Source of the DNA: a virus
Strand: one strand, 5' to 3'
Length of the DNA: 37,219 nt
Virus record (IMG/VR): IMGVR_UViG_3300047376_000451
Coordinates: 1-37,219 of that record
This document shows, piece by piece, positions 1-37,091 of this stretch. A model generated the notes under the pieces. It saw only the letters and a list, made by a program, of their open reading frames with translations, did not search any database and was not told where the DNA came from. The translations under genes and the position numbers were made by a program. Position 1 is the stretch's first letter. Every line of letters starts with the position of its first letter.

Positions 1-137
1 GGTTCAAGTTGCGCGGGCACAGGGAGGAAAACCCGCTTGAGGTGCAGACGTGGACGTCGAAACCACTCTGAGCAAGACCAAGGTAAACTTTTTTCAAAGA
101 AAATGCAAATAGCTGCATTTAGGGGGTTGTACCTATG

Positions 138-165
138 TTAACATTGTGTTAACTTAAGGTATAAA
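138..165 (+). promoter_or_regulatory. Sigma70-like promoter with CtrA-like box (copy A)
   Basis: A -35 TTAACA (138-143) is separated by 16 bases from a -10 TATAAA (160-165). The sequence GTTAACATTGTGTTAAC at 137-153 overlaps the -35 and fits the TTAA-N7-TTAA(C) form known for CtrA. In the second copy the spacing and half-sites are kept while three of the seven central bases change. This promoter would drive the rightward gene at 206. CtrA binding is inferred from the motif only. Confidence 0.65.
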
Positions 166-205: not shown

Positions 206-715
206 ATGACTATCAACGAACTCATCACCTACTTAAACGAAATGCCATCATCTGGCTTTGCTTTGCACTGCTACGACGAAGACGATGACTTCAGCGATGA
301 CGACGATTGGGTCGATACCGCGTCACCATACACACGCAACGACGGCGGTCGCGCCGCGTCAGGCCGCAAGGGCAGCGCCGGAGATTGCGGCGTGCGTGCA
401 ATGGCCATCGCGCTGGGCCTCGACTACGACGCCTGCTACAAAGAGCTGGCCCAAGCCAACAAAGACGCCGGACGCGCCAAGTCAATGCGTCGTGGCATTA
501 TGAAATCAGACTTTGACAAAGTGCTGGCGCGCTACGGCTGGGTCTGGCACTCAGCGCCAAAGTTTGACGGGCGCAAGGCGCGCTGCTCAGACATGCCAGC
601 GGGCGCTGTCATCGCGCGGCAGTCTCGCCACTTCGTCGCCGTCATCGACGGCCAGCCGCATGACACTTGGGATTGCTCCGGCAAGATGGTCTACGGCTAC
701 TGGCACAAAGCCTAA
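206..715 (+). CDS. Papain-like cysteine peptidase-like protein
   Basis: A 169-residue protein that I assign tentatively to the papain/C39-like fold. After an acidic N-terminal stretch (residues 24-37 rich in D/E) comes GDCGVRA with a candidate nucleophile C61 at the head of a helix, then a candidate general base H142 in RHFVAVIDG and an acidic residue D153. This Cys-His-Asp order is typical of papain-like peptidases and amidases. The start is ATG at 206 after GGGAGG. It is the first gene behind a strong-looking promoter, runs opposite to nearly all other genes, and overlaps the TerL stop tail to tail in a shared CTAA. A different protein with the same Cys-His-Asp plan occupies this locus in the other copy (36366). 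A role against the host or in processing is a guess. Activity is not shown. Confidence 0.6.
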   Translation: MTINELITYLNEMPSSGFALHCYDEDDDFSDDDDWVDTASPYTRNDGGRAASGRKGSAGDCGVRAMAIALGLDYDACYKELAQANKDAGRAKSMRRGIMKSDFDKVLARYGWVWHSAPKFDGRKARCSDMPAGAVIARQSRHFVAVIDGQPHDTWDCSGKMVYGYWHKA

Positions 716-2133
716 ACGACCCCGCGTATGCCCCTGCGAAGGGGCGCGCCCCACCCGCCAACCTTAGAACCAAAATGCATCGCCGTGTGGTCTGTCGCCA
801 AAGACAGGCACACGGCGTCGGCGCGATCTGGTGAGGCAACGCGCCGCTTCTTCATGCTGTCCTTGCTCTCGACCTGCATCTTACCGCTCGACGTGAAATG
901 ATATCGCGGCGCCGCCAGCTCAGCATATAACGCGTCGTCACGCGGCAGCTTAACATCCATACCCTCCAGCCACGCCTTTGCCTTGAACCACAGCTCCGCG
1001 CGCAGGTTCACATATGTCTGGTTCGCCGCAGCGCGCTCCGACACGTTCAAGCCACGCGCCGGCAAGCCGATCTCGCGCAGCCGATCCAGCACGCCGGCGC
1101 CAAACCCGTTGCTATCCACAATGATCTCCTGCGGGCGCTTGTCAACCGGCAGCGCGTCATATTCCGCCTTCACGGCGCCCGTGAGCTGCATCAAATCGAG
1201 GTTACGCCACACGCTGAGCGGATGCACGACGGGGCCCTGACGCTTAGCCAAGACAGACGCATCGCCGCCCTGACGCGCAACATCCAATCCCCATATGCTC
1301 GCCGTGTTCTCATGCACACGCACGTCGCTGGCCATGGCAGCCTCGATCAGCGAGACAGGTATCACCGTGTCCTCTTCGGATGGCGGGAAATTACCAAGAA
1401 CGCGCACATGATAAGCGGGGCTATCGATTCCGTAGCGGCGCTGCATATCCTCCACAAAGTCATCGCTGACGCGCGGGCTGTCAACGCAGGAGACATGCAT
1501 CGTGTGCCAGTCATCGCGCAGCCGATTGTGCGTCTCGTAGAAGAACCCCGTGTTACGCGTGGGGTTGCCCGTCAGCACCGTCGTCGCCGTGTGGCCCGAC
1601 ATCGACCCACTGGCAGCCTCAAACACCGCCTCGGGTATCCCGCTGGCCTCGTCAGCCAGAAGCAGCACAGAGGGGCTGTGAACGCCGGCGAGGGCCTCGG
1701 GCTGCTCGGCGCGGCTGGTGCGGCACGAAATAAACGTGCTTTCGGGGTGGCTCTTCAGCTCGATCCGATCAGACTTCACCTCCAGCAAACTGTCAAACGG
1801 CGGCTTCAGCCTCTTGGCCAATGCCTTCATCTCAGCGAACAGCGCATCAAACAGCTGCGCGCTGGTGGGCGCCGTGACAACCGTCTTGCTCGGCACGCGC
1901 ATCAAAACGTGCCACAGGGCAGCCATGGCAACGCCGGTACTCTTGCCAACGCCGTGGCCGCTGCGCACGCTCACGCGGCGTATGGCAGGCGCTGAGACGG
2001 CGTCAAGCAGCTCAACCTGCCACTCGTCGGGCTCGATGCCAATGACCTCCTCGGCAAAGCGCACAGGGTCATCACGATAGCGACGCATGAGCGCCAGAAA
2101 CGGGTTATCGCTGGGGGTGGGGGTGCTGGTCAT
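712..2133 (-). CDS. terL: Terminase large subunit
   Basis: The 473-residue packaging motor cuts concatemeric DNA and pumps it into the procapsid through the portal. The N-terminal ATPase has Walker A SGHGVGKS (residues 58-65) and Walker B LLLADE ending at D161-E162. The C-terminal RNase H-like nuclease shows D284 in WGLDVARQGGD, D340 in IIVDSNGFG, and SPDRADA around residues 434-440, the expected acidic cluster. Length is normal for the family. The ATG at 2133 has AGGAG about 11 bases upstream, which is rather far. It lies downstream of terS across a 343-base non-coding gap and is convergent with the gene at 206. A second, diverged TerL C-terminus lies at the right edge of the window. Confidence 0.95.
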   Translation of the reverse strand: MTSTPTPSDNPFLALMRRYRDDPVRFAEEVIGIEPDEWQVELLDAVSAPAIRRVSVRSGHGVGKSTGVAMAALWHVLMRVPSKTVVTAPTSAQLFDALFAEMKALAKRLKPPFDSLLEVKSDRIELKSHPESTFISCRTSRAEQPEALAGVHSPSVLLLADEASGIPEAVFEAASGSMSGHTATTVLTGNPTRNTGFFYETHNRLRDDWHTMHVSCVDSPRVSDDFVEDMQRRYGIDSPAYHVRVLGNFPPSEEDTVIPVSLIEAAMASDVRVHENTASIWGLDVARQGGDASVLAKRQGPVVHPLSVWRNLDLMQLTGAVKAEYDALPVDKRPQEIIVDSNGFGAGVLDRLREIGLPARGLNVSERAAANQTYVNLRAELWFKAKAWLEGMDVKLPRDDALYAELAAPRYHFTSSGKMQVESKDSMKKRRVASPDRADAVCLSLATDHTAMHFGSKVGGWGAPLRRGIRGVV

Positions 2134-2476
2134 TTTTCGCGTGGCTCCTATTTTTCGGGAAACGTGAAGGGGTGGGGGGTATGGCGGGGGTGCGTGGGGG
2201 GGTCATTGCAATTGCACCCCGCCGCGCCGAAAGAGGGGGGGGTCAAACCTGACCATCCGGTCAGGATATAGCCCCAAAAACGGCTGGAATCGCATAATCG
2301 TTATTATGTTAAATTTATTATGCAGCAATATCAGCATGTTAGCGTTTTACAACTATTTAAAGTTGTATCGTTGCCATCGTTTCCGGCGTAAATTCGCCCC
2401 AATCTTGACCGCTTAGTCAGGTTGATGTATCCGCACGCGCGCGTTCGCGTCTCTGCATTGATGCGCAAAATCGCCA
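2134..2476. other. Non-coding gap between terS and terL (possible packaging or regulatory site)
   Basis: No convincing gene is seen in these 343 bases. They hold G-rich runs (2170-2240), a 10-bp palindrome TGCAATTGCA (2207-2216), a hairpin CCTGACC-ATCC-GGTCAGG (2248-2265), an AT-rich island (about 2285-2345) and a hairpin ACAACT-ATTTAA-AGTTGT (2349-2366). A possible leftward promoter reads TTGCTG, 16 bases, TAATAA within the AT-rich part, and is weak. Its position beside the terminase genes suits a pac/cos site or the terL leader; this is inference. Confidence 0.5.
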
Positions 2477-2920
2477 TCAATCGCCATCCTCGTCCACGAT
2501 CTCAGCGTCCTCGACGTCGTCCAGATCGCCAAGTAACTCCGCTGCCTGCGCGTGCAAGTCGTTCACGCTGATGTTGATTGCGATGTCCTTCTGGCGCACG
2601 TCGTATTGCTGGTTAAGCTTCGACGCGATCCATTTGTCCGTGTCCACTTGCAGGCGTGACACGTTCACTGTCGCCGGATCTGCTTTCTGCGCCGTATCAA
2701 CCGCGCGTGACGCGAAGAAATGCCCAGCGGCTTCCTGCGCCGCTCTGTAACGATCCTTGCGCCCACGCTCAGCGTCGAGCCACTTGTGCCACAGCTTCCA
2801 ACCTACATCCAGCTCGCCAATGATCGTAGACACGGTTTCACCGCGCGCCATCCTCTCGAACAGCGCGTCTTCGCCAACCGCATTGATCGCTGCGATCTTC
2901 GCCTTGCCAATCTCACCCAT
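2477..2920 (-). CDS. terS: Terminase small subunit (Sf6 gp1-like)
   Basis: Probable DNA-recognition subunit of the packaging terminase. The 147 residues show an N-terminal helix-turn-helix-like segment (GETVSTIIGELDVGWKLWHKW, written in full because it marks the fold), a central helical region ending in a DKWIASKLN motif typical of Sf6 gp1-like small subunits, and an acidic C-terminus. I place the start at ATG 2920, which has GGAGG six bases upstream, rather than the GTG at 2938. It overlaps the end of the upstream gene by 8 bases. TerL follows downstream after a non-coding gap, which supports the call. Confidence 0.75.
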   Translation of the reverse strand: MGEIGKAKIAAINAVGEDALFERMARGETVSTIIGELDVGWKLWHKWLDAERGRKDRYRAAQEAAGHFFASRAVDTAQKADPATVNVSRLQVDTDKWIASKLNQQYDVRQKDIAINISVNDLHAQAAELLGDLDDVEDAEIVDEDGD

Positions 2921-3182
2921 CGCCAGCCTCCAGCTCACCCGCTATCGCAGCGTACCCGCACACGTCCACCCAATTATCCGAGTGATCGCTTGAGCGCGAA
3001 CGCGATACCTTGAGCAGCACCATCATTGCCGCCACATCCACCTCAGTCACGGGCACGCCGAGATATGCTGACCACATGCCAGCAATGGTCGCGTGCGACG
3101 CCTTTGCGGAGCCATATGTCCGCTGCCTGTCGCCCGTGATCAGATCGCCCGCCGTCCGCAAAATATCTTCCCTCGTTACCAT
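2913..3182 (-). CDS. DUF6378-like phage protein
   Basis: An 89-residue protein resembling the DUF6378 family: ITGDRQRTYGSA near the N-terminus, a central WSAYLG-V segment followed by DVAAMMVLLKVSR, and a C-terminal DNWVDVCGYAAIAGE. The family is frequent in phages, often near packaging or nucleotide-metabolism genes, and its function is not established. It overlaps its upstream neighbour by 7 bases and terS by 8, so all three are probably one transcript. Confidence 0.7.
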   Translation of the reverse strand: MVTREDILRTAGDLITGDRQRTYGSAKASHATIAGMWSAYLGVPVTEVDVAAMMVLLKVSRSRSSDHSDNWVDVCGYAAIAGELEAGDG

Positions 3183-3763
3183 GGAATATCGTCCTCTATG
3201 TTTCCGTTGCCACTTTCGTCTACCACACGCGTCACCTTTGCGTTGGGAAACGTCTCAAACGCCTTCTGCAGGAACGCCTCGCTGAAATGCTGCTTCAGTA
3301 TACACGCCGCATCCTCGAACGAGTAGACCACCCACTGCGGATGCTTCTTCCGCAGATCAGCGCATCCCTGCCTTGCGAAGCACACGATCTGCCCGTCATC
3401 CACCTCCACGCACCAAGCGTGAGGCGACAGCGGCTTGTGCCCCGCCTGCGTCGCCTGCTCCTCCATGCGCTGCCAGCCAACCATAAGCTGCGTGGCAATC
3501 TTATTTGTCCGAACGGCATCCTTATCGACCACCGCCTGCTTCAGCGCCTCATAGGCTGCCTCGAACTTACCTGCCAGCTCAGGCGTAACCAGAGACGGCA
3601 GTGTATCACCCCACCGCTCTGTCATTTCCCTCGCCACCCGATCCAGCGGCTCAAGCTGACCCCAGACCGACGCCGGTATAGGCTCCGTTCTTTCACCAAC
3701 CGTAAACTTGCCCTTCGACGCTATTTGCTTAGCTGTGGGCCGACGCCCCTTCTTAACAGCCAT
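3176..3763 (-). CDS. Hypothetical protein, unknown function
   Basis: A 195-residue soluble protein that I do not recognise. The N-terminus is basic (MAVKKGRRPTAKQ), the middle is helical, and the C-terminal third contains a Cys-bearing segment (WCVEVDDGQIVCFARQGC). The start chosen is ATG 3763, which has GGGAGG eight bases upstream; ATGs at 3769 and an upstream codon at 3781 sit too close to that ribosome-binding site. It is the first gene downstream of the CCGCAC repeat cluster, so the cluster is its leader region. The basic N-terminus is compatible with DNA contact. Confidence 0.7.
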   Translation of the reverse strand: MAVKKGRRPTAKQIASKGKFTVGERTEPIPASVWGQLEPLDRVAREMTERWGDTLPSLVTPELAGKFEAAYEALKQAVVDKDAVRTNKIATQLMVGWQRMEEQATQAGHKPLSPHAWCVEVDDGQIVCFARQGCADLRKKHPQWVVYSFEDAACILKQHFSEAFLQKAFETFPNAKVTRVVDESGNGNIEDDIPW

Positions 3764-3775
3764 GACCATGCCCTC

Positions 3776-3922
3776 CCGCACCTTTCACCGCACCCAGAAT
3801 AAATACGCCCGCACCTCTCTCCGCACTTTGCATATATATATGCAAGAGGTGCGGCGGAAGGTTTTGAGCATTATTTACCGCACCTACCGAACCCCGCCGC
3901 ACCACAAGTGCGGTAAGTGCGG
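3776..3922. repeat. Iteron-like CCGCAC cluster with central palindrome (candidate origin/operator)
   Basis: Nine copies of CCGCAC or its complement GTGCGG lie in 147 bases: forward at 3776, 3788, 3809, 3821, 3878 and 3897, reverse at 3849, 3908 and 3917. Aligned in one orientation they read roughly (T)ACCGCAC(C/T)(T). In the centre is an 18-bp perfect palindrome TTGCATATATATATGCAA (3828-3845), flanked by inverted copies at 3821 and 3849. The block fills the gap between two leftward genes. Iterons beside an AT-rich segment suggest a replication origin or a multi-site operator; the binding protein is unknown. Confidence 0.75.
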
Positions 3923-3940
3923 TAGCGATATTACGACCCA

Positions 3941-4372
3941 TCACTTCAGCACCTTGAACGCTGAAATGTCCCAGTATGCCATTGGCTCCCAATCCTGCTC
4001 GTCTCCACGCCGATCAGAGCCGCCCCAATCCCAATATAGGTTTGCTCGCTCTGGCGGTGGCAGCTTGCACATGCCCAGATGGTCAGTCCACTGAACGATC
4101 AACATGCACGGCAGCCCCGTCACGGCTGCTAGGTTATACGCCGACTGCACCTTATGCATCCCAATCATAAACGTCGGATATTGGTGCATGGCATTTTTTC
4201 TCTGACGCATCTCAAAGAACGCCTTGGCCTTGCCGTCTAAGATCCCGACGTAATCTATGTAAAGCTTCATCGGCATCTTGTGCATCGTCAGCTTGTACCT
4301 TGCGGCGATAAAATCTGCCATCGCCTGTTCGTTTTGACGGTCTGCGTCACTTTCATATATTGGCCTGTTCAT
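3941..4372 (-). CDS. PD-(D/E)XK nuclease-like protein (tentative)
   Basis: A 143-residue protein. The pattern E(22)-rich helix, then YIDYVGILDG, then AFFEMRQRK resembles the E...D...ExK core of PD-(D/E)XK or VRR-type nucleases, with the last motif carrying R/K in a degenerate form. A Trp-rich C-terminus follows. The ATG at 4372 was chosen because GGAGAGGAGG lies seven bases upstream and it forms an ATGA overlap with the primase-helicase stop; an upstream codon at 4399 lacks this. Its place directly after the helicase gene fits a role in DNA processing. Function is inferred only. Confidence 0.6.
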   Translation of the reverse strand: MNRPIYESDADRQNEQAMADFIAARYKLTMHKMPMKLYIDYVGILDGKAKAFFEMRQRKNAMHQYPTFMIGMHKVQSAYNLAAVTGLPCMLIVQWTDHLGMCKLPPPERANLYWDWGGSDRRGDEQDWEPMAYWDISAFKVLK

Positions 4373-6570
4373 ATTCCAGCCTCCTCTCCTGTTATCCATT
4401 CACCCACCACAATGCACGGCACTTCCCTGCCGTCACGATTGCTGTGCGCCATTGCCTTGCGCAGCACGCCCGACGACAGCCATTTCTTGATGACGTCGCG
4501 CACCTTCGCCTTTTCGTTTTTCTTTTCCATATCGAGATCCAGCACCTGCGCCACAGCGTGGCCCACCCACGCCTTTGCCTGCGCGCTTTCACGCAGCGGC
4601 TCGCTGTTGGCCTCCGCCTCACCCACCACGCGCTGCACGGCCATCGTGTGCCGCGCTGTGATGCCCTCGAATAGATCCGGCAGCGTAAACTCGGTGGCCA
4701 CGCCGACATATTCCATGTTTGGAAGCTGCACGCCCACCATGCGCCGGTAGACCGCCTTCGCGGCTGGCGGTGCCAAGTTTGCCTTGCCGTCGTCCACGCG
4801 GAATATGCCGAGGCTCTCATCCTCAGACACGCCCAGCTTCTGCGCGTCTTCCGCGCTGATCTTGTTGATGACCCGCGCCGCACGCGCCGCCCCGATCAGC
4901 GACCCCGCGCCCCTCACGCTGTCCACGGTTGCCTCGTCGCCGTTGCCCTTGCGGATGTGATGCACCAGACCAGCGGCGCAATCTGTCTCGTCGCAGACGC
5001 TACGCACGGCGCTGACCGCCGCGTTCATGGCCACGTTGTCATTTTCGTTTATCATATTGGCGCCGACCCACGGGTCGATAAACATGACGCCGATATTGTT
5101 CTGTTTGATCATCTTGGCCATGTAATCGAGCATCTCGTCGTTTACCTCGGTGCCCTCGCGGCCCTGATTGGCGAAGACCATGTTGAGGCTTCTGCCGGCG
5201 TCAAGGAACAAGCGCCCTCGCACCTCTTCCGCCGCGATGCCATAGTGCAGCATCGTCGCCGCATATCTGCGCTGCATTTCCTCCAGCGGGTCTTCCAGAT
5301 TGATGACCCAGACGTTGCACCGCTCATGCACCGCCTCGCCAAGCAGCGGCTTGCCCGTCGTGATGCATAGACTTTCCAAAATTTGTAATGACGTTTTGCC
5401 AACGCCGCCCGCAGAGGCCAGCACGCTTACATTGCTGCGAATGTAATGCTGGCCGTAAATCCACCGACGCGCCGGTATGGATGCCGGATCTACGGGCTCA
5501 TATGGCGTCGGCCACTGGCGCTCGCTTGCGATGCGCTCCTGCTTCACCTCCTCGACCGGCTTTGCCAGCGCCAGCGCCTCGCGCAGCTTCTCCGCGCCCG
5601 CTTCCTGCAGGTAGTCGTTGGCATCTTTTACGTTTTCCACGCCCAGCGCGTCGAAGCGCACGACGTGGACGTCGGTGCTGCCGTCGCCGCGCAGCACGTC
5701 TGCGACCGCCTCCACGTCGAGGTCAGGGTCTGCGCAGATCGTGACGTCGCTGGCTCTTGGCGCGTTAAACGTTTTCATGCCGGCCTTGCCAAACGTGCAG
5801 ACGATTGCTGCGTCCGCATGATCTACGATAGCCTGCCTGACGCTTAGCGCATCCTCTGGCCCCTCGACCAATATGATCGCGCCGCCTTCATGCTCGTCGC
5901 CGATCCGCATGGCGTTGCCCACCAAGCTGCCGCGTGAATATTTGTTGATACCGTTATGCTCGCGCTTTTGGCCATCCTCTGTAAGCAGCACCGACTGCAC
6001 GCCGCACAGCTCGCCCTGCTCGTTTGTGGCGGGGAACATAATCGCTGGCCCGCCATAAATGCTGGGCGAATACCGAGCGACCCCAGCCGCTGTGCCTGCG
6101 CGCATCCCGCGATTGTTCAAATACAGCAACGCCGGTCGCACGGCGTCTTTATTCTCCCGAGATATCGGCACGCTACGCTCCCACGCCTCTTGCGCTTTTG
6201 CGATTTTTTCGGCGCGCGTTTCCTCGTCTCGGATCAAAAGCTCCTTACTGGCCAGTCTAGCGATCAGGCGATCCATCTCTGACGCTTGAAACGGCACGGC
6301 ATCGTCGCCGTCCAACTGCTTGGGGTTTTCGCTGCCGCGCTTGAAGCCGCTGCCAATGGTTGCCTTGATCTCTTGATCCGGCAGCCCGATTGCCTTAGCC
6401 GCCGTGTGCAAGTCTATGACGCTGCTATCAATGTTGCTGGCGTCCATGTGCGCGTGCCGACCCAGCGCGTATGCCGCGAGGTTCAGCGCCTCGTTGCGGC
6501 GCCCCTTCGGCGCCATGGTAATGTCAGAAACGACGCTTTCCCGTACCTTTTCAAAATAGTTTACGCTCAT
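4369..6570 (-). CDS. Primase-helicase (TOPRIM plus RepA-type ATPase)
   Basis: A 733-residue replication protein. Residues ~230-290 form a TOPRIM domain with ILVEGPED (E236) and CADPDLD (D281, D283). Residues ~370-560 form a RecA/RepA-like ATPase with Walker A SAGGVGKT (386-393) and Walker B VMFIDP (D499); the last ~70 residues look like a winged helix. This domain order is found in phage and plasmid bifunctional primase-helicases that act at the fork with host polymerase. No zinc finger is obvious at the N-terminus. It overlaps the nuclease-like gene by ATGA and follows the SSB-like gene after a GC hairpin. No polymerase gene is seen in the window. Confidence 0.9.
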   Translation of the reverse strand: MSVNYFEKVRESVVSDITMAPKGRRNEALNLAAYALGRHAHMDASNIDSSVIDLHTAAKAIGLPDQEIKATIGSGFKRGSENPKQLDGDDAVPFQASEMDRLIARLASKELLIRDEETRAEKIAKAQEAWERSVPISRENKDAVRPALLYLNNRGMRAGTAAGVARYSPSIYGGPAIMFPATNEQGELCGVQSVLLTEDGQKREHNGINKYSRGSLVGNAMRIGDEHEGGAIILVEGPEDALSVRQAIVDHADAAIVCTFGKAGMKTFNAPRASDVTICADPDLDVEAVADVLRGDGSTDVHVVRFDALGVENVKDANDYLQEAGAEKLREALALAKPVEEVKQERIASERQWPTPYEPVDPASIPARRWIYGQHYIRSNVSVLASAGGVGKTSLQILESLCITTGKPLLGEAVHERCNVWVINLEDPLEEMQRRYAATMLHYGIAAEEVRGRLFLDAGRSLNMVFANQGREGTEVNDEMLDYMAKMIKQNNIGVMFIDPWVGANMINENDNVAMNAAVSAVRSVCDETDCAAGLVHHIRKGNGDEATVDSVRGAGSLIGAARAARVINKISAEDAQKLGVSEDESLGIFRVDDGKANLAPPAAKAVYRRMVGVQLPNMEYVGVATEFTLPDLFEGITARHTMAVQRVVGEAEANSEPLRESAQAKAWVGHAVAQVLDLDMEKKNEKAKVRDVIKKWLSSGVLRKAMAHSNRDGREVPCIVVGEWITGEEAGI

Positions 6571-6596
6571 CTGTTTTCCCCGCTTTTATGTTGCCA

Positions 6597-6614
6597 CGCC
6601 CGCCGAAGCGGGCG
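6597..6614 (-). terminator. UUCG-loop hairpin between SSB-like and primase-helicase genes
   Basis: On the minus strand CGCCCGC-TTCG-GCGGGCG makes a 7-bp GC stem closed by a C(UUCG)G tetraloop, an exceptionally stable form. No U-tract follows, so it is more likely an attenuator or mRNA end-stabiliser than a full terminator. It lies in the 59-base gap before the primase-helicase start. Confidence 0.5.
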
Positions 6615-6629
6615 CGGTTGTAACTTTTG

Positions 6630-7205
6630 TTAGAACGTAAAATCGTCCGCATCTACAACGTCGGCCACGGGGGCTGGCGCCGCAGGAGCTGCAGGAGCTT
6701 CGCTGGGGGGCGAGATCCATTTAACGATGGTGAAGCCCAGATCGTAGGTGTTCCCCTTTCCAACAGCCACAGGCGTTGACGAAGTGACGCTTACCACGGG
6801 GATCATCCCCTGATTAAACTCTGGCGCGTTTTCCGCCTGATTGTACAGCTTGGCAATAAACTGCCCCGTGCCGTAGCTGTTGTTGCTGAACTGGGCCTTG
6901 GTGCCGTCAGACGTCCAGCAATTTACGTCAAAGCCTTGCTTGTAGGCAGGCTTGCCCTCCGCGTCTATCTCGGTTGGCTTTGGCAGCGCACGGTTTGGCG
7001 ACGGCCATTCCTGCCAATCGCGCTGTCCGATGGCGATCTTCAGCCATCCAAATTTTACGTTCTTGACATCAATGGCGATGCCCCTGACCATATCAAGCTC
7101 GACGGGGTCACCGCCTGCGTGCATCGTCCAGCGGTTTTGTGGAAGGTTTACGCGAATGTAAGCGTTGCTGCTATCGCCTGATGCTTCACCGAAAGATATT
7201 GGCAT
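6630..7205 (-). CDS. Putative single-stranded DNA-binding protein
   Basis: A 191-residue protein with a beta-rich body, a Pro/Ala linker (residues ~167-180) and a short acidic tail ending VVDADDFTF. An acidic C-terminus finishing in phenylalanine is the hallmark of bacterial SSB and of T7 gp2.5-like proteins, where it recruits partner proteins. No standard SSB signature was recognised, so the call rests on the tail and the neighbours: RecE-like exonuclease upstream, primase-helicase downstream. A recombination mediator is the main alternative. Confidence 0.65.
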   Translation of the reverse strand: MPISFGEASGDSSNAYIRVNLPQNRWTMHAGGDPVELDMVRGIAIDVKNVKFGWLKIAIGQRDWQEWPSPNRALPKPTEIDAEGKPAYKQGFDVNCWTSDGTKAQFSNNSYGTGQFIAKLYNQAENAPEFNQGMIPVVSVTSSTPVAVGKGNTYDLGFTIVKWISPPSEAPAAPAAPAPVADVVDADDFTF

Positions 7206-7235
7206 GTGTGTCTCCTTGACTTTGTGTGCCCGTGT

Positions 7236-8036
7236 TTATGCGCCGTGTGACGCCGTGAATTTGAACGCCCAGCGCGGTATCTGAAGCGTTTGCAGCTCCC
7301 CATACCCGTATCCCCAGACGCCCGTGTTTTGCGCTATTGCAAATTGCTCTAGCGCGCTCTGGACTGCAGCATCGCCTTCGTTAAGCGTACTCCAGTCTAG
7401 CTCGTAAACTCCAACAGGGTAAGGCGCTTCTTTGCCTACGCTGATGAAGATAAATCTGTCTATTTCATGGCCAAGCAAGCCCATTGTCCGGCGGTAGAAG
7501 GCTTCTTGAATATGATACCCAAAGTTGGCAACCTGCTTGGCAAAGCCTTCCGGATCTGGCGCTATCGTCGTCTTTAGATCGATCAGAGCCCCGATGTCAC
7601 GACGCCACCCGTCCGGACGCACGCGCATGTTGACGCCAGTGCGGTCATCTTTCGCAAACAGGCTGGCCTCGCAGATTAGATCGCCAGTTAAAAGCTTGGC
7701 CACCTCCTTGTTGCTGCGCACCGCGTTTGCCGCGTCTACGGCGATCTTATAGTCGCCTTCCGTTAGAAGCAGCGCGCCGTTGGCCTCGGCCTCCGCCTTG
7801 CGCTCGTTCCACTCCTTGCCGCGCCGCGTCTCCGGCCCGCACCACACGGTGCTTGCGTGCTGCGGCTCAAACACCAGCGTGTGCGTGGCCGTGCCGACGT
7901 CGAATGCGGTGCTTTCCTTGCGCTCGGCATACTTGTAATGCGCCAGCGACTTCATGGCGATTGTCTTGGCGCCAGAGGCGCTCAGAGCGTCACTGAGGTG
8001 GTATTCCTCGTTTGACATCGTGGTTGATATGGTCAT
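7236..8036 (-). CDS. RecE-like PD-(D/E)XK exonuclease (DUF3799 type)
   Basis: A 266-residue nuclease of the exodeoxyribonuclease VIII/DUF3799 type. Visible motifs are VGTATHTLVFEP (H52, E57), CEASLF (E123), RVRPDGW (D142), IDLKTT (D153, K155) and YHIQEAFYR (Y174, Q177, Y181). These match the metal-binding and conserved residues of this PD-(D/E)XK group. Such enzymes degrade one strand of duplex ends to prepare recombination, usually with an annealing protein; no RecT-like protein was recognised nearby, and the SSB-like gene follows directly. Its start overlaps the resolvase stop by ATGA. Confidence 0.85.
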   Translation of the reverse strand: MTISTTMSNEEYHLSDALSASGAKTIAMKSLAHYKYAERKESTAFDVGTATHTLVFEPQHASTVWCGPETRRGKEWNERKAEAEANGALLLTEGDYKIAVDAANAVRSNKEVAKLLTGDLICEASLFAKDDRTGVNMRVRPDGWRRDIGALIDLKTTIAPDPEGFAKQVANFGYHIQEAFYRRTMGLLGHEIDRFIFISVGKEAPYPVGVYELDWSTLNEGDAAVQSALEQFAIAQNTGVWGYGYGELQTLQIPRWAFKFTASHGA

Positions 8037-8488
8037 GCCTTCCCCCTTCCGTAGAGCGCAATTAAGAGCGCCTCTGCTTTATGTTCATCCTTCTTGCGCT
8101 TCAGTTCGCTCGCCATATCGGGAAACCACTGCTGCGCCATGCGCCGCGCTGCGTCTTTATCCTTTGGCAGGTTCATCGCCCGCTTCCACACGACCGGCGT
8201 CACCATGGTGTAGCGCGTGCGCGACAGCGCCACGGTCGTCGTGATCTGGCCAAACGCGTACCCCAGCTTGAACGTGCTGGACACGCCCTGCTTTGGCATC
8301 GCCTGCTGCTTCTCGATCCATATGTGATCGAGCCGATCCACCGACGTAAGAATGTCCATCAGCGCCACGACGTCAACGCCGCCCTCACTGTAGACGGGCA
8401 GGTCATGCACCTCCGACCAGTTTTCACCGACCAGCGCCACGCCGCCCGTGCGGTAGCCGCAGTCTATGCCACACGTAACGATGCTCAA
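8033..8488 (-). CDS. RuvC-like Holliday junction resolvase
   Basis: A 151-residue RNase H-fold resolvase. TCGIDCGYRTGGVALV carries the first catalytic Asp (D9), HIWIEKQQ the Glu (E59), and the C-terminal KKDEHKAEALLIALYG helix the remaining acidic residues (D134 or E135, and E139). It would cut branched DNA before packaging. I choose a TTG start at 8488: AAGGAGG lies seven bases upstream and the codon overlaps the stop of the preceding gene. Starts further upstream would add a stretch unlike the family. It belongs to the recombination block with the exonuclease. Confidence 0.8.
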   Translation of the reverse strand: MSIVTCGIDCGYRTGGVALVGENWSEVHDLPVYSEGGVDVVALMDILTSVDRLDHIWIEKQQAMPKQGVSSTFKLGYAFGQITTTVALSRTRYTMVTPVVWKRAMNLPKDKDAARRMAQQWFPDMASELKRKKDEHKAEALLIALYGRGKA

Positions 8489-8784
8489 TGCATGTCCTCC
8501 TTGTCGGGCGTGCTGTACGTCTCGAATATGATCCCTATGGCCATGGCAATCGCGTCCTGCACGTCGCAATCGTTTTCGCGCATGTGGCCAACCACTGACT
8601 GCAGCGCAGCGCCCAGCGCGTACACCTTGGCCAGATCCGGCAGCTCAGTGCGCTCGGTGACCGCCAGCGTACTACGCATGAGCGCGTTGACCTCGGCCAT
8701 CGTGTTGCTGGCAACCGCATGCATCTCTGCCTGCTGCTCCGGCGTCAGCGTGAACCCCTCATCCACGCTGCACGTCCACGCCAT
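8485..8784 (-). CDS. Hypothetical protein
   Basis: A protein of up to 99 residues, mainly helical and acidic, with no family recognised. The ATG at 8784 overlaps the preceding ribbon-helix-helix gene by 26 bases; a GTG at 8766 would shorten the overlap, and neither has a strong ribosome-binding site, so the start is uncertain. The reading frame ends inside the ribosome-binding region of the resolvase gene, which suggests coupled translation. Confidence 0.6.
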   Translation of the reverse strand: MAWTCSVDEGFTLTPEQQAEMHAVASNTMAEVNALMRSTLAVTERTELPDLAKVYALGAALQSVVGHMRENDCDVQDAIAMAIGIIFETYSTPDKEDMH

Positions 8785-8920
8785 GCTCGTCGAGCAGGCG
8801 CAGGATGGCGCGCTCTGTTAGACTTGCCATGCTGATGCGCTCCTGCTTTGACAGCTCACGCAGCGCCTCGAAGACGTCGGCGCGGATGCGCGATCCAAGT
8901 TGTTTCATCTCAGTGTCCAT
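8759..8920 (-). CDS. Small ribbon-helix-helix DNA-binding protein
   Basis: A 53-residue gene found by direct reading. The protein begins MDTEMKQLGSRIRADVFEAL and ends RAILRLLDEHGVDVQRG. A short beta-strand (QLGSRIR) followed by two helices (DVFEALRELSKQER and MASLTERAILRLLDE) is the plan of Arc/CopG ribbon-helix-helix repressors. The ATG at 8920 has GGAGG five bases upstream, and its promoter at 8944-8971 contains a GTTAAC element. It could be the regulator of early phage promoters, possibly including its own. The function is inferred from the fold pattern. Confidence 0.75.
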   Translation of the reverse strand: MDTEMKQLGSRIRADVFEALRELSKQERISMASLTERAILRLLDEHGVDVQRG

Positions 8921-8943: not shown

Positions 8944-8971
8944 ACTATAACGCCGCGTTAACATTGTGCAA
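8944..8971 (-). promoter_or_regulatory. Leftward promoter of the ribbon-helix-helix gene
   Basis: Read on the minus strand: -35 TTGCAC (8971-8966), 16 bases, -10 TATAGT (8949-8944). The spacer holds one GTTAAC (8957-8962), a half-site of the box found at the other early promoters. The inferred start of transcription is about 15-20 bases before the ATG at 8920. Confidence 0.65.
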
Positions 8972-9274: not shown

Positions 9275-9601
9275 TTAGGCGGTCGCCTTGCGCCATTCAA
9301 TGGCGCAATCAAGATGCCAATCAGATGCCAAGTGATCTGCTTTATTCTGGTCAAGCTCTTGAAAAAACTCTTTGCCTGTCATGCCTTGAGAAATACATTT
9401 CTCAACAAAGTATTTCGGCGCTTCGACAAGATTTTTAACCGCATCGATAATATCAACTTTTGAAGTGTAGAAATTATCGTCTTCAAATAAATCGTTGCCG
9501 TTTGCATCGAGCAGCCAGTATGACCAGCCATACATGTCACGTTGTGTACCGATGGTGACGCCTTTTGTGGTTGCGATTTTTCTAAGCTCATTGATTGTCA
9601 T
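9275..9601 (-). CDS. Hypothetical early protein
   Basis: A 108-residue protein, unrecognised. It begins MTINELRKIATTKG and has a central acidic WLLDANGNDLFEDDN segment and a helical C-terminal half. Its first residues MTINEL match those of the peptidase-like gene at 206, probably by chance. The ATG at 9601 follows GGAGG by nine bases. Its codons are clearly more AT-rich than those of the neighbouring replication genes, which hints at a separate origin. It is driven by the promoter at 9628-9659. Confidence 0.65.
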   Translation of the reverse strand: MTINELRKIATTKGVTIGTQRDMYGWSYWLLDANGNDLFEDDNFYTSKVDIIDAVKNLVEAPKYFVEKCISQGMTGKEFFQELDQNKADHLASDWHLDCAIEWRKATA

Positions 9602-9627
9602 TTGGTAGTACCTCCATTTGTTATACT

Positions 9628-9659
9628 GTTAACATAATGTTAACATCAGGAGATTGCAA
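9628..9659 (-). promoter_or_regulatory. Leftward early promoter with full CtrA-like box
   Basis: The sequence GTTAACATAATGTTAAC (9628-9644) is a palindrome apart from its centre and fits TTAA-N7-TTAAC on both strands. On the minus strand a -35 TTGCAA (9659-9654), 17 bases and -10 TATGTT (9636-9631) place the box over the -10; an alternative -10 TATAAC lies at 9625-9620. A protein bound here would compete with polymerase or recruit it. It drives the gene at 9601. Confidence 0.6.
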
Positions 9660-11075: not shown

Positions 11076-11224
11076 TACTCTTCATCCTCCTCGTTGCGCC
11101 AATCGAAGTCGTCTTCGTCTTGGCATTCTGGGCAGCGCACCGTTGTCCACGCGTCGCTGTCCGGCGTGTTGACGAAACGCGGCAACTCTATGAAGCCGGT
11201 TCCGTCGCAAGTCGTGCAGATCAT
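11075..11224 (-). CDS. Small zinc-ribbon protein (DnaJ-type CxxC pairs)
   Basis: A 49-residue protein starting MICTTCDGTGFIEL. Two CxxC pairs, CTTCDGTG and CPECQ, are spaced as in a zinc ribbon of the DnaJ Cys-rich type, followed by an acidic tail. The ATG at 11224 overlaps the upstream stop by ATGA, which decides the start over codons further upstream. Such mini zinc ribbons are common in phages and of unknown function; they could bind protein or nucleic acid. Confidence 0.7.
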   Translation of the reverse strand: MICTTCDGTGFIELPRFVNTPDSDAWTTVRCPECQDEDDFDWRNEEDEE

Positions 11225-11802
11225 TTGTACACATCCGCGTCGATGCTCCACAGCACCAACGACGCGCGCTGCTGGTTTGCGCGTTGGTTTACATGCGCTC
11301 GGCATATCTCGCCGCGTGCGTGCATGTTTTCGAGGTGCTGTGAAAGCTTGCGCGGCTCAACGCCAACGACGTCAGCGATGTCTGCCGTCTCGCAATATGT
11401 GACGTCGTCGCTCTGCAGCATCGCAAGGATCTTCCGCTGGACGTCAGCCCAATCAATCGGCTCAGGCTTTGGCTCGCCAACCTTTGCGACGACGACCGTG
11501 TTGCCGTCTTCATCTTTGGCAAAGCGATCACCGTCATCTAGCCCATAAGTGGCCGCCAGCACGTCACGCGCAGCGCGGCGCTCCTGCACATATGCGGCGA
11601 CCCACGGCGTGCGCTCGCGCTGCTCTTCTACCGCGTTCTGCACGATGATGCCGGTGCAGATGTCGTCGAGATTTGCGTGCGCCTGCTGCAACAGACGCGG
11701 CGAAATATGTACGCTCTCGCCGTTGTCGGTGCGTACCGCAAAGCCGGTGCCGCTGTCGGTGATGTGCGTGATTAGAAATTCATGTGTATGCGTAAGGTTC
11801 AT
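11221..11802 (-). CDS. Putative DNA-binding protein (OB-like plus winged helix)
   Basis: A 193-residue protein. The N-terminal ~50 residues (EFLITHITDSGTGFAVRTDNG onward) have an OB-like beta pattern similar to small nucleic-acid-binding domains. Residues ~120-190 look like a winged helix (VQRKILAMLQ, then ETADIADVVGVEPRKLSQHL and a wing ending LVLWSID). The ATG at 11802 is preceded by GGAG; the long upstream extension of the frame has no support. It is a candidate early transcription regulator. The fold reading is by eye only. Confidence 0.65.
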   Translation of the reverse strand: MNLTHTHEFLITHITDSGTGFAVRTDNGESVHISPRLLQQAHANLDDICTGIIVQNAVEEQRERTPWVAAYVQERRAARDVLAATYGLDDGDRFAKDEDGNTVVVAKVGEPKPEPIDWADVQRKILAMLQSDDVTYCETADIADVVGVEPRKLSQHLENMHARGEICRAHVNQRANQQRASLVLWSIDADVYK

Positions 11803-11828
11803 TATGGTTTCTCCATTTCCATATTTTT

Positions 11829-11854: not shown

Positions 11855-12013
11855 TTAAAACATATCTTCTGGATTAGTATCATCAGCCACAACGCGAGGT
11901 GACATAATATCATCAAAAGCTTTAGCCGCCTCTTCGTAAGATGAATATATAATACCTTCGTCTTTAGCTTCGCTCCAAAAATCTGCTAAAGCTTCTTCAT
12001 AATAGTTGTTCAT
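11855..12013 (-). CDS. Small acidic early protein
   Basis: A 52-residue acidic protein starting MNNYYEEALADFWSEAKDEG and ending in an acidic NPEDMF. It is AT-rich compared with most neighbours. AGGAGG lies about five bases before the ATG at 12013, and the promoter with a CtrA-like box is directly upstream, so this is the first gene of the leftward early transcript. Small acidic early proteins sometimes act as host-enzyme inhibitors or DNA mimics; nothing here proves that. Confidence 0.65.
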   Translation of the reverse strand: MNNYYEEALADFWSEAKDEGIIYSSYEEAAKAFDDIMSPRVVADDTNPEDMF

Positions 12014-12037
12014 TTTTTCCTCCTGATTGCTTATATT

Positions 12038-12068
12038 GTTAACATAAAGATAACACAGCACGGTGCAA
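12038..12068 (-). promoter_or_regulatory. Leftward early promoter with CtrA-like box
   Basis: Minus strand: -35 TTGCAC (12068-12063), 16 bases, -10 TATGTT (12046-12041). The box GTTAACATAAAGATAAC (12038-12054) has one mismatch to TTAA-N7-TTAAC on the plus strand and overlaps the -10, the same arrangement as at 9628. It would drive the leftward early operon from 12013. Confidence 0.6.
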
Positions 12069-23450: not shown

Positions 23451-23987
23451 TTAAATCCACCTTGGCCCTTCGAACCATGCCACTAAAGAACGTCTTGTGC
23501 CGCTTGTCACAGGCTGCACTGCATGTTGCAAATAGCTCGGAAAAACTAAGACCGTTCCCTTTTCCTTGGAGCTTTTATCGGGGCTTTGACACTCGCTAAA
23601 CGAAAAGTCACCCCCTTCATATTCGTCTGCACCTGACAGTTGAACAGTTACTGAAAGCTTACGATCCAAGCCATCATCGCGGTTCCAATCAATGTCGTGG
23701 TGCCAAGAATAGTGACCACCCTCTGAGCCTAAGTATTCTGTAAACTGTATGTCAGCTTTTTTGTAAATATGAGCCTTAAAAGCATTTCTGTTTGCCATGT
23801 CTACAAAGTCGTACAAAAGATCCAAAACAGGCTTGTTGTTCGTAAGCCATGCAACGCGGCTTTTACGAACATCAGACCCACCTTCATTAAAGGTTGATGC
23901 TTCCGCTGTATCCCCAGCCAACTTAACGATTTCGTCAACTCTATATTCGGGAATTGCCCCAGAAAACATCTGCCAGTTTTGCCTCAT
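23451..23987 (-). CDS. 2-oxoglutarate/Fe(II) oxygenase (prolyl-hydroxylase/PiuC-like)
   Basis: A 178-residue double-stranded beta-helix oxygenase. The iron ligands are the H96-x-D98 pair in YSWHHDIDW and the distal H155 in YLQHAV; R165 or R166 in SGTRRSLVAW would hold 2-oxoglutarate. FPSYLQHAVQPV followed by SGTRRSLVAWFEG is very close to the PiuC/YbiX-like group. Substrate is unknown: protein (Pro, Asn) and nucleic acid are both known for related enzymes. It lies among fibre genes, 1.5 kb after a collagen-like fibre, so it may modify a virion protein. All catalytic residues are present. Confidence 0.9.
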   Translation of the reverse strand: MRQNWQMFSGAIPEYRVDEIVKLAGDTAEASTFNEGGSDVRKSRVAWLTNNKPVLDLLYDFVDMANRNAFKAHIYKKADIQFTEYLGSEGGHYSWHHDIDWNRDDGLDRKLSVTVQLSGADEYEGGDFSFSECQSPDKSSKEKGTVLVFPSYLQHAVQPVTSGTRRSLVAWFEGPRWI

Positions 23988-25106: not shown

Positions 25107-26621
25107 TTACTTAACCCCATAAAATTTAATACTGCCTTTAGCCAAAAAAGTACCCGTTGAACCAAAGTAACTAGCATAAAAAGTTATCGATGTTGTAGAT
25201 GTGGTAATCCCGTAGTCTGCAGGGCCACCCTGTGTCACGTTATATGAGTAACGCGTCAAATTGGTTTGAAGAGTTGATGCTATTCCAGTAAATCCGTAGC
25301 CAGTAGATAAATCAATTTCTGTACTTGTGTTATTGAGAAATTGAGACCCATATTGGCTTATCATAAATTGTCCACGGGTACTATTTTGCTGCAAATAAAC
25401 ATATGCATTGTTATTTTGTAAGCCTAATCCTATAGCATATATTTTAAGAAATTTGTAACTACTCAGGTTTAAGCTACTAAGTGTAATACTAGAACCGGAA
25501 GTAACAGTTAAGGTTCCTAATAAGGTAGTTTCACCAGATGCGCCAGTTGGCCCCGTTGGCCCCGTGCTTCCCGCGCTTCCCTGCGGCCCCGTTGGGCCCG
25601 TTGGACCGGTTGGGCCCGTTGGGCCGGTGACAGAGTTGCCTTGAGGCCCCGTTGGCCCCGTTGGCCCCGTTGGCCCCGTTGACCCCGTATTTCCCTGTGG
25701 CCCTTGTGGCCCTTGTGAGCCTGTCGGGCCGGTCGGGCCGGTCGGGCCGGTCGGGCCATCATTGCCGTCAGCCCCCGCAGGGCCAGTGGCGCCTTGCGGC
25801 CCAGTCGGGCCAGTAGGCCCAGTAGGCCCAGTAGGGCCTTGGAGCGCGGCATTGGTAATTGTTTGCTTTTCCCAAGCCCCTGCGCTCACGTCATAAACAG
25901 GAATGAGATCAGAACCTGTTGCATCTGTACCAGTAGAAAACGCAGTTAAAGATGATCCAACATTTCCAGTGTCGGTAACATCCGCACTGGCCTCAATACC
26001 ATTCAGCTTGCTGTGGTCTGCATCAGTGAAAACATTGCTATCACTTGCAGCCTCTACAGCCGCTCTAATCTCAGCGTTAGTTTGATCGCCAGTTGCACCG
26101 CTTTCAATGCCGTCTAGCTTTGTATGATCGGCATCCGTAAAAACATTGCTATCGCTCGCCGCTTCAACCGCCGCCCTGATTTCAGCGTTAGTTTGATCGC
26201 CAGTAGCGCCGGCCTCTATGCCATCGAGCTTCGTTCCATCCGCTGCAACATCGCGTCCGTCAACGGTTCCGCTGATTGCAAGACTGCCTGTCAGGCTAAC
26301 ATTGCCACTAGCATCACGCACCAAATACTTTTCAGCCGGCACAGTCACAAAAATATCTTTTGAGCCGGACGGCCAATCTACTGCGTTATCGCTGTTGGAG
26401 CTTTCCAGAATAGTGTCGCGCGAAAGCGTAGCTCCAGACGCAGTAAATGTTCCGATACCAACCTCGTACAAGCTGCCATCTGTACAAGCATAATAAGTTG
26501 TATTCCCGTTCCCAACGGCTGCAAACGACTGGAAGCCGTCTGAGGCGCCGGCGAGCGTATAGGTGCCGGTAGACGTTGTCGTGGTTGTTTCTTTGACGCG
26601 GTCAGCAATTACCAAGGCCAT
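25107..26621 (-). CDS. Collagen-like tail fibre protein
   Basis: A 504-residue fibre. Residues 1-105 are an N-terminal domain common in phage fibres (virion anchor). Residues ~131-205 hold two 36-residue repeats ([20 protein letters not shown] type). Residues 262-365 are about 33 Gly-X-Y triplets, mostly GPT and GPQ, with one interruption at GNSVT; prolines occur only at X. Residues ~366-504 are a beta-rich tip, the likely receptor-binding part. The triplet region should form a trimeric collagen helix. Chaperone-like genes follow directly. GPT-rich collagens in bacteria can carry sugars on Thr; that is not shown here. Confidence 0.9.
25527..25838 (-). repeat. Nine-base tandem repeats coding for Gly-Pro-Thr triplets
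   Basis: Imperfect tandem 9-base units (GGCCCCGTT and variants on the plus strand) encode residues 262-365 of the fibre. Blocks of units are nearly identical (for example around 25650-25680 and 25730-25755), so slippage or recombination could change shaft length in multiples of three residues. Confidence 0.8.
26006..26231 (-). repeat. Tandem ~111-base repeat inside the fibre gene
   Basis: Two adjacent units encode the 36-37-residue segment with [20 protein letters not shown] and FTDADH; the nucleotide copies differ at many third positions, so the duplication is old or imported. A partial third start (DGIEASADV) precedes the collagen region. Confidence 0.75.
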
Positions 26622-36133: not shown

Positions 36134-36161
36134 CCCGCGCGCTGGGAGGGCGTTCGCGGGG
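36133..36161 (-). terminator. Intrinsic terminator at the map junction (leftward)
   Basis: On the minus strand CCCCGCG, a 15-base loop and CGCGGGG are followed by TTTCTTTTT, the form of a rho-independent terminator. On a circular map it would stop leftward transcripts coming from terL after they cross the rightward gene at 206 and the repeat. The first two bases of the window (GG) are the remains of the same stem in copy A. Confidence 0.6.
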
Positions 36162-36369
36162 TTCAAGTTGCGCGGGCACAGGGAGGAAAACCCGCTTGAG
36201 GTGCAGACGTGGACGTCGAAACCACTCTGAGCAAGACCAAGGTAAACTTTTTTCAAAGAAAATGCAAATAGCTGCATTTAGGGGGGTTGCACCTATGTTA
36301 ACAAAATGTTAACGTCAGGTATAAATCAACAGGGGCTGCGGCCCCGCAACGCTCGGGAGGGCAACATGA
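36160..36369. repeat. Direct repeat copy B
   Basis: Second copy of the 1-210 block, with one inserted G in a G-run, one T-to-C change, three changes in the centre of the CtrA-like box and two just after it. The match stops at the ATGAC of the downstream gene. The distance between copies gives a unit length of about 36,160 bases. Confidence 0.95.
36298..36325 (+). promoter_or_regulatory. Sigma70-like promoter with CtrA-like box (copy B)
   Basis: -35 TTAACA (36298-36303), 16 bases, -10 TATAAA (36320-36325). The box reads GTTAACAAAATGTTAAC (36297-36313). Compared with copy A, both GTTAAC halves and their spacing are unchanged although three central bases differ. Confidence 0.65.
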
Positions 36370-37091
36370 CCAAACTAAAAATCAAATCAATCAACCACGG
36401 CGAAACCAAAGCAGACAAAAACCGCTACTGCGGCCCCGCCGTCATCAGCGCCATCACAGGCATGACCACTGGCGAGGCTGCGCGCCTGATCCGTCACGTC
36501 AGCGGGCGCAAGTCTATCAAAGGCTCTTCTGTCTGGGAGGTGACGCGCTCCCTCGAAATGTGCGGCGTCGACAGCAAGCGCGAAAGCTTCGGCCTCGCGC
36601 TGGGGCGTAGCAAAGGCCCGACGCTGGCGGCGTGGCTCAAGCACACCGTCAAGCAGCGCACCGCCGACCGCGTATTCCTGATCGTCGCGGGCTGGCACTG
36701 GCAGCTTGTGCAAGGCCGCCGCATCGTGTGTGGCATCCTCGGCGATCCCACTTCGATCCGCGACAAGCGCGTCAAGCGCCGCGCACGCGTCGCCGAGGTG
36801 ATCGAGCTGCACTCAATGGGCGCGATCACCAAGGCCATGGCAGCGGCCAAGCCAAAGCGCGCAGCGCAGCCTGCCGACAGCGACCGCGCTAAGGCAAAGC
36901 GTCTGGCCGCCAAGCTCGGCTTCACCATCGAAAGCCAATACGACACATATTTCGACGGCAGCCGCCAATACATGTATTGGATCGACGGCGCAGATAAATA
37001 CGTCGATGAAGGCGTGGTCGAGTATTCGTGCCACTACTCATGGTACGACGTCCTCGACAGCCTGCAGGCCATCGAGGCGCACAAGCCCTAA
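36366..37091 (+). CDS. Papain-like cysteine peptidase-like protein, alternative allele
   Basis: A 241-residue protein starting MTKLKIKSINHGETKADKN. NRYCGPAVISAITG carries candidate nucleophile C22 at a helix start, GWHWQLVQG candidate base H111, and ILGDPTS candidate D127: the same Cys-His-Asp plan as the gene at 206 but with almost no other similarity and ~70 extra residues, including a basic central part (residues 131-200) and a Tyr/Trp-rich C-terminus. Promoter, leader and ribosome-binding site are those of the repeat. It ends in the same CTAA convergent overlap with a TerL C-terminus. Function unknown; amidase or transglutaminase-like activity are alternatives. Confidence 0.6.
   Translation: MTKLKIKSINHGETKADKNRYCGPAVISAITGMTTGEAARLIRHVSGRKSIKGSSVWEVTRSLEMCGVDSKRESFGLALGRSKGPTLAAWLKHTVKQRTADRVFLIVAGWHWQLVQGRRIVCGILGDPTSIRDKRVKRRARVAEVIELHSMGAITKAMAAAKPKRAAQPADSDRAKAKRLAAKLGFTIESQYDTYFDGSRQYMYWIDGADKYVDEGVVEYSCHYSWYDVLDSLQAIEAHKP

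Follow-up and report, generated by a model that had tools for sequence, protein, structure and literature searches.

The window, that is, the whole stretch of DNA analysed here, is an IMG/VR record of 37,219 bp in which a short palindromic sequence, the box, recurs at promoters. The motif TTAA-N7-TTAA is present exactly at 138-152, 9629-9643, and 36298-36312, and with one mismatch at 12039-12053. Conservation extends beyond it to a 17-bp unit, GTTAAC-N5-GTTAAC, that occurs exactly at 137-153, 9628-9644, and 36297-36313, with one mismatch at 12038-12054 and with two at 8946-8962. These five matches compare with 0.67 expected, and a count of five was reached in 1 of 100 dinucleotide shuffles. 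The original prediction had placed boxes at these loci, and the scan confirms them as exact or near-exact matches; the promoter with a half-site that it proposed at 8944-8971 is likewise present, as TTGCAC-N16-TATAGT on the minus strand. The boxes and the genes behind them are as follows, where the register is the distance in nucleotides between a -35-like TTGNNN and the box.

127-132, plus strand: -35-like TTGTAC of the box 1 promoter, register 4, read from the sequence
137-153, plus strand: box 1 allele A, GTTAACATTGTGTTAAC, an exact match 4 nt behind TTGTAC
160-165, plus strand: TATAAA, 6 nt after box 1, read from the sequence
206-715, plus strand: cargo gene A (169 aa), led by box 1, matching phrog_3754
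712-8569, minus strand: genes for replication and packaging led by the RHH promoter, encoding RuvC, an exonuclease, a helicase-primase, and both terminase subunits (small and large)
8759-8920, minus strand: 53-aa ribbon-helix-helix (RHH), Arc-like protein, a candidate repressor (phrog_3180, E 6.4e-8)
8946-8962, minus strand: box 4 (weak), GTTAACGCGGCGTTATA, two mismatches, in the RHH promoter
9275-9601, minus strand: gene behind box 2, 108 aa, no family
9628-9644, minus strand: box 2, GTTAACATTATGTTAAC, exact, register 9
11855-12015, minus strand: small gene behind box 3, ATG at 12015
12038-12054, minus strand: box 3, GTTATCTTTATGTTAAC, one mismatch, register 8, with a -35-like TTGCAC at 12063-12068
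36297-36313, plus strand: box 1 allele B, GTTAACAAAATGTTAAC, an exact match at the same locus as 137-153
36366-37091, plus strand: cargo gene B (241 aa), led by allele B, with no match to a family

The two ends of the record overlap. Positions 1-126 are identical to 36160-36285 (126 bp) and the stretch that follows is 93% identical, so that 1-210 and 36160-36370 represent the same locus, which leads into different cargo genes and then, on both sides, the 3' end of the terminase gene. In three independent contigs (L005, L007, and L008), the terminase is followed by this block and then directly by window position 36370 and the structural operon, which connects position 1 to 36370. The record reads as wrapped, not linear, the contig closing on itself with the allele of a second strain. 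The overlapping ends are thus two alleles of a single locus, so that 137 and 36297 mark a single box site; the original prediction's count of them as two is ruled out. The two alleles keep the arms of the box and differ in its 5-bp centre (ATTGT versus AAAAT). An inverted repeat, AAATGCAAATAGCTGCATTT, lies at 102-121, just upstream of box 1 and within the block identical between the alleles, and the stretch 85-180 folds better than 200 of 200 shuffles, for which the palindrome of the box is partly responsible. By eye, both cargo proteins (206-715 and 36366-37091) show a Cys...His pattern and look peptidase-like; phrog_3754 is a family of unknown function, and in Sinorhizobium phage phiM5 an annotated putative peptidase adjoins the terminase.

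The gene for the RHH protein is the first gene of the replication operon, and in the RHH loci examined it adjoins replication genes like those of the window (RuvC, exonuclease, helicase-primase). Its weak box lies among promoter elements on the minus strand, a -35 TTGCAC at 8966-8971 and a -10 TATAGT at 8944-8949. The small accessory genes at 9275-9601 and 11855-12015 are also led by boxes. The accessory locus beside the terminase is hypervariable: its promoter persists across relatives, and the first genes behind it fall into about 25 sequence clusters (L005-L084), some of whose first ORFs may be miscalled. In five contigs (L011, L012, L015, L019, and L024), the box and the cargo are missing together. 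We suggest from sequence a putative box regulon comprising the replication operon, the hypervariable accessory locus, and the small accessory genes; judging by their content, the box-led genes are probably of an early class. Elsewhere, the window encodes a 2OG-Fe(II) oxygenase family protein (23451-23987) and a collagen-like tail fibre with Gly-Pro-Thr repeats of 9-bp period (25107-26621).

Conservation of the box was followed in 80 terminase relatives (81-100% identity, 875 kb), which contain 44 exact and 27 one-mismatch copies. In the same set, GTTAAC pairs at spacings other than N5 are essentially absent, and palindromes with permuted arms gave a mean of about 0.07 exact hits versus 18 for the arm GTTAACA. 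Spacing specificity and the permuted-arm controls together rule out the box as a product of chance in AT-rich DNA. A second class of box at N4 (21 one-mismatch hits) was considered and dropped, those among the listed examples being a single homologous TerS/TerL junction. Across the window and 20 relative records (681 kb), 52 boxes have at most one mismatch, and 48 of them fall outside long ORFs, defined as ORFs of at least 120 aa and covering 83% of this DNA. By eye, the remaining four resemble promoters inside over-long ORF calls, one of them the RHH promoter. The boxes are thus preferentially intergenic, as in the LPEG phages of Mascolo 2022, whose CtrA boxes are clustered; equal frequency inside genes, which would have counted against the regulatory role originally predicted, is clearly not what is seen. 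Mismatches divide 20:11 between TTAA and flanks, as expected for equal weights, and by this measure the whole GTTAAC hexamer is evidently constrained, its G/C flanks as much as TTAA. The sister clades (1.8 Mb) hold no exact box, one one-mismatch box, and one marginal RHH-like hit. A random collection scan for the 17-mer found window homologues in 27 of the 118 contigs examined, and many of the contigs that have none look like AT-rich chance or repeats in other phages. The clade consists of uncultured phages recovered many times from metagenomes, and the boxes of the window are real and under selection.

The box also occupies defined positions within the promoter. Among 103 non-redundant oriented sites, the distance from TTGNNN to the box is mostly 4, 8-10, or 15-16 nt, giving three registers, with TTG 4 nt from the box in 35 of the 103. 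In register 9, the centre of the box, otherwise free, reads xxTAx in 30 of 36 sites, compared with 1 of 35 in register 4 and 0 of 7 in register 15 (Fisher p about 1e-14 for the enrichment, not corrected for relatedness). With this centre, a TA(T/G)GTT -10 element falls inside the box, 17 nt from TTG, as in box 2, where TATGTT (9631-9636) stands 17 nt from TTGCAA (9654-9659). At the -10 position of registers 4 and 15, TAACNN comes from the half-site itself. The box thus appears to overlap the core promoter, covering the spacer and -10 of host-type sigma70 promoters. A TATA sequence follows the box in 16 of 35 register-4 sites and 33 of 36 register-9 sites; in the window and its relatives, it lies 2-7 nt after the box and at a nearly fixed distance of 27-29 nt from the -35-like TTG. 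It may mark the region of transcription start or, possibly, a second promoter with the box near its -35. At box 1, TATAAA at 160-165 together with TTAACA at 138-143 also forms a sigma70-like promoter with 16-bp spacing, and a TATA element lies near box 2 at 9620-9625. Computationally, then, the box is conserved, promoter-specific, clade-restricted, and fixed in register to a -35-like TTG. The predicted regulatory and promoter-sited character of the box accordingly holds (48 of 52 copies outside long ORFs, fixed register), as does its exact match to the CtrA consensus.

This geometry could be read as promoter architecture only, for example as a -10 variant and a DNA-shape signal recognized together by a host sigma factor; no dedicated regulator would then be involved. 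The box does always overlap the core promoter and supplies a -10-like TAACNN or TATGTT. However, a 12-bp motif in two halves, with invariant spacing and three registers, exceeds what a -10 requires, and the part outside the -10 is conserved too. We consider this reading highly improbable. Register shifts of 5 and 11 bp would place the site on different faces of the helix, an arrangement better suited to occlusion than to activation.

A dedicated binder could be the host cell-cycle regulator CtrA, as originally proposed. Phosphorylated CtrA (CtrA~P) would bind the boxes and tie early, replication, and accessory transcription of the phage to the cell-cycle or motility state of the host (lytic deferment), with repression from boxes over the -10 and activation from boxes near the -35 of the TATA promoter. 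The window matches the CtrA consensus, TTAA-N7-TTAA, exactly. The site GTTAACGGTTTGTTAAC of phiCbK gp005, which is bound and activated by CtrA, has the same GTTAAC-N5-GTTAAC form (PMC9437464), and full CtrA sites in Caulobacter activate at -35 and repress at -14 (PMC4287350), which resembles the two promoter readings here. Cultured relatives of the window phage are mostly, not only, alphaproteobacterial: those annotated include phages of Sinorhizobium, Rhizobium, Sulfitobacter, Octadecabacter, and Pelagibacter, but relatives also infect Methylophilales and Microcystis. Genome contigs and plasmids were not informative on the host; the three genome-contig hits lie in MAGs of different phyla and may be misbinned phage contigs. 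A 10.6-kb contig with a 99% identical terminase in a Desulfuromonadales MAG (JAQYVZ010000053.1, our L086), is probably misbinned phage DNA. A phage-encoded response regulator was also sought, and no PF00072 match was found; Lacusarx, tried as a CtrA reference, has no full site in its first 14 kb.

Regulation of phage promoters by CtrA has already been published (Mascolo 2022, PMC9437464). The phages described there, phiCbK, vB_BsubS-Delta, and Cp1R7A-A1, carry the same TTAA-N7-TTAA in intergenic positions, at promoters of small genes of unknown function, as here. In contrast to those phages, the present clade carries a single box at each promoter and 2-5 boxes in each long record, includes the replication operon among the box-led genes, and shows co-occurrence of box and RHH gene. 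The LPEG pattern of boxes clustered in one gap or in a direct terminal repeat was not seen, the window boxes lying at separate loci and those of the relatives being spread over the genome; the lack of such a cluster sets these phages apart from published CtrA phages and argues against CtrA. So does the comparison with LUZ24-like podoviruses related to Sinorhizobium phage phiM5. The window phage shares 51% identity in the terminase, 44% in the portal, and 52% in the major capsid protein with phiM5, yet in the sister-clade scan phiM5 and phiM5-type relatives have neither the box nor this RHH protein, although the Sinorhizobium host of phiM5 bears CtrA. Further against CtrA, the boxes are limited to the clade with the RHH gene and absent where the ribbon of the RHH protein has changed, and their G/C flanks are as constrained as TTAA. 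Control by CtrA is a possibility to be taken seriously, though somewhat less likely than not.

The RHH protein of the phage, which the original prediction named as an example of a phage repressor in its second reading, is an alternative candidate binder. Its match to phrog_3180 carries the signature of the RHH family, the family scores being modest, and the Pfam match to PF12651 (RHH_3) reaches 19.9 bits, below the cut-off of 21.6. Structure prediction was uninformative as support for the fold: the AlphaFold monomer has two helices and no ribbon, and the Arc and CopG matches from a Foldseek search of PDB folds all had E values above 1. The gene is present in 16 of 18 relatives (G001-G018), and the two that lack it (G004 and G005, 34.8 and 32.5 kb) may be incomplete; no homologues were found in cultured phages. 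A box with at most three mismatches occurs at the RHH promoter in 76 of 80 loci scored, compared with about 3% of random windows, so that the protein has a candidate operator in its own promoter, usually degenerate in its second half. In three contigs (L130, L146, and L214), two exact boxes lie 80 bp from each other, and the second is followed immediately by the ribosome-binding site of the RHH gene. Q7, G9, R11, and R13 of the ribbon are invariant. RHH proteins with an RQxGA ribbon (4 loci, at most 2 lineages) have no box at their promoter and no one-mismatch box elsewhere in these loci; a search for an alternative repeated dyad in these lineages returned pairs only, none recurrent. The same loci (L260/G019 and L265-L267) have no RuvC hit beside the RHH gene and possibly reflect loss of the whole regulatory module.

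As the best explanation, to which we give an even chance, GTTAAC-N5-GTTAAC would be the operator of an autoregulated phage RHH repressor. A protein bound to the box, lying over the spacer and -10, would block RNA polymerase, and this protein would be the phage-encoded 53-aa RHH, whose dimers would sit on two self-palindromic hexamers 11 bp, or one helical turn, apart. As RHH accumulates, early transcription would be shut down: its own weaker box on the promoter of the replication operon would provide negative autoregulation, and the stronger boxes elsewhere would silence the accessory genes, among them the variable cargo next to the terminase. Arc, too, reads two palindromic half-sites about one turn apart. 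Phage repressors of the Arc/CopG type (phrog_3180 being Arc-like) are likewise RHH proteins of about 50 aa with an operator over their own promoter; here, in contrast, the operator would be GTTAAC-N5-GTTAAC, the gene heads the replication operon, and accessory promoters share the box. The N5 spacing, the location outside ORFs, the registers, the constraint on the full hexamer, the co-occurrence of RHH and box, the box at the RHH promoter, its absence with the RQxGA ribbon, and the sister clades that lack both favor the RHH repressor. Against it, the co-occurrence comes from a single clade and the change of ribbon from two lineages at most, hence few independent events; the fold rests on modest family scores; the second half of its own box is usually degenerate; a TATA 27-29 nt from TTG with the box at about -35 also fits activation of the CtrA type; and the exact match to the CtrA consensus would be an uncomfortable coincidence were CtrA not involved. 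A small phage repressor with the box on its own gene is at least as likely a binder as CtrA.

Another phage or host protein could bind the box, for instance a host regulator distinct from CtrA or the weak candidate winged-helix protein at 11221-11805. The accessory region does encode further small candidate DNA-binding proteins (HTH_24, E 0.04), but none is shown to be conserved with the box or known to have it in its own promoter, and we regard such a binder as very unlikely; even taken jointly, readings that involve neither RHH nor CtrA seem unlikely. It is also rather improbable, in a case that overlaps the RHH and CtrA readings, that the box is contested between the RHH protein and host CtrA~P, with a phage repressor that reads CtrA sites.

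What is new here is a clade-wide box with three registers, its link to a replication operon headed by an RHH gene, and a variable cassette led by the box. Together, these amount to a conserved cis-regulatory code in a metagenomic phage clade, for which a candidate regulator can be named. A match to the CtrA consensus in a phage does not by itself show control by CtrA, and the question of CtrA boxes in phages becomes a test of two alternatives, host CtrA and a repressor of the phage. If CtrA binds, cell-cycle or motility gating would reach the replication operon in uncultured phages; if RHH binds, these phages would encode a repressor with CtrA-like specificity. If both bind, the motility or cell-cycle state of the host and the gene dosage of the phage would both feed into early and replication transcription, and CtrA promoters of the host might be further targets of RHH.
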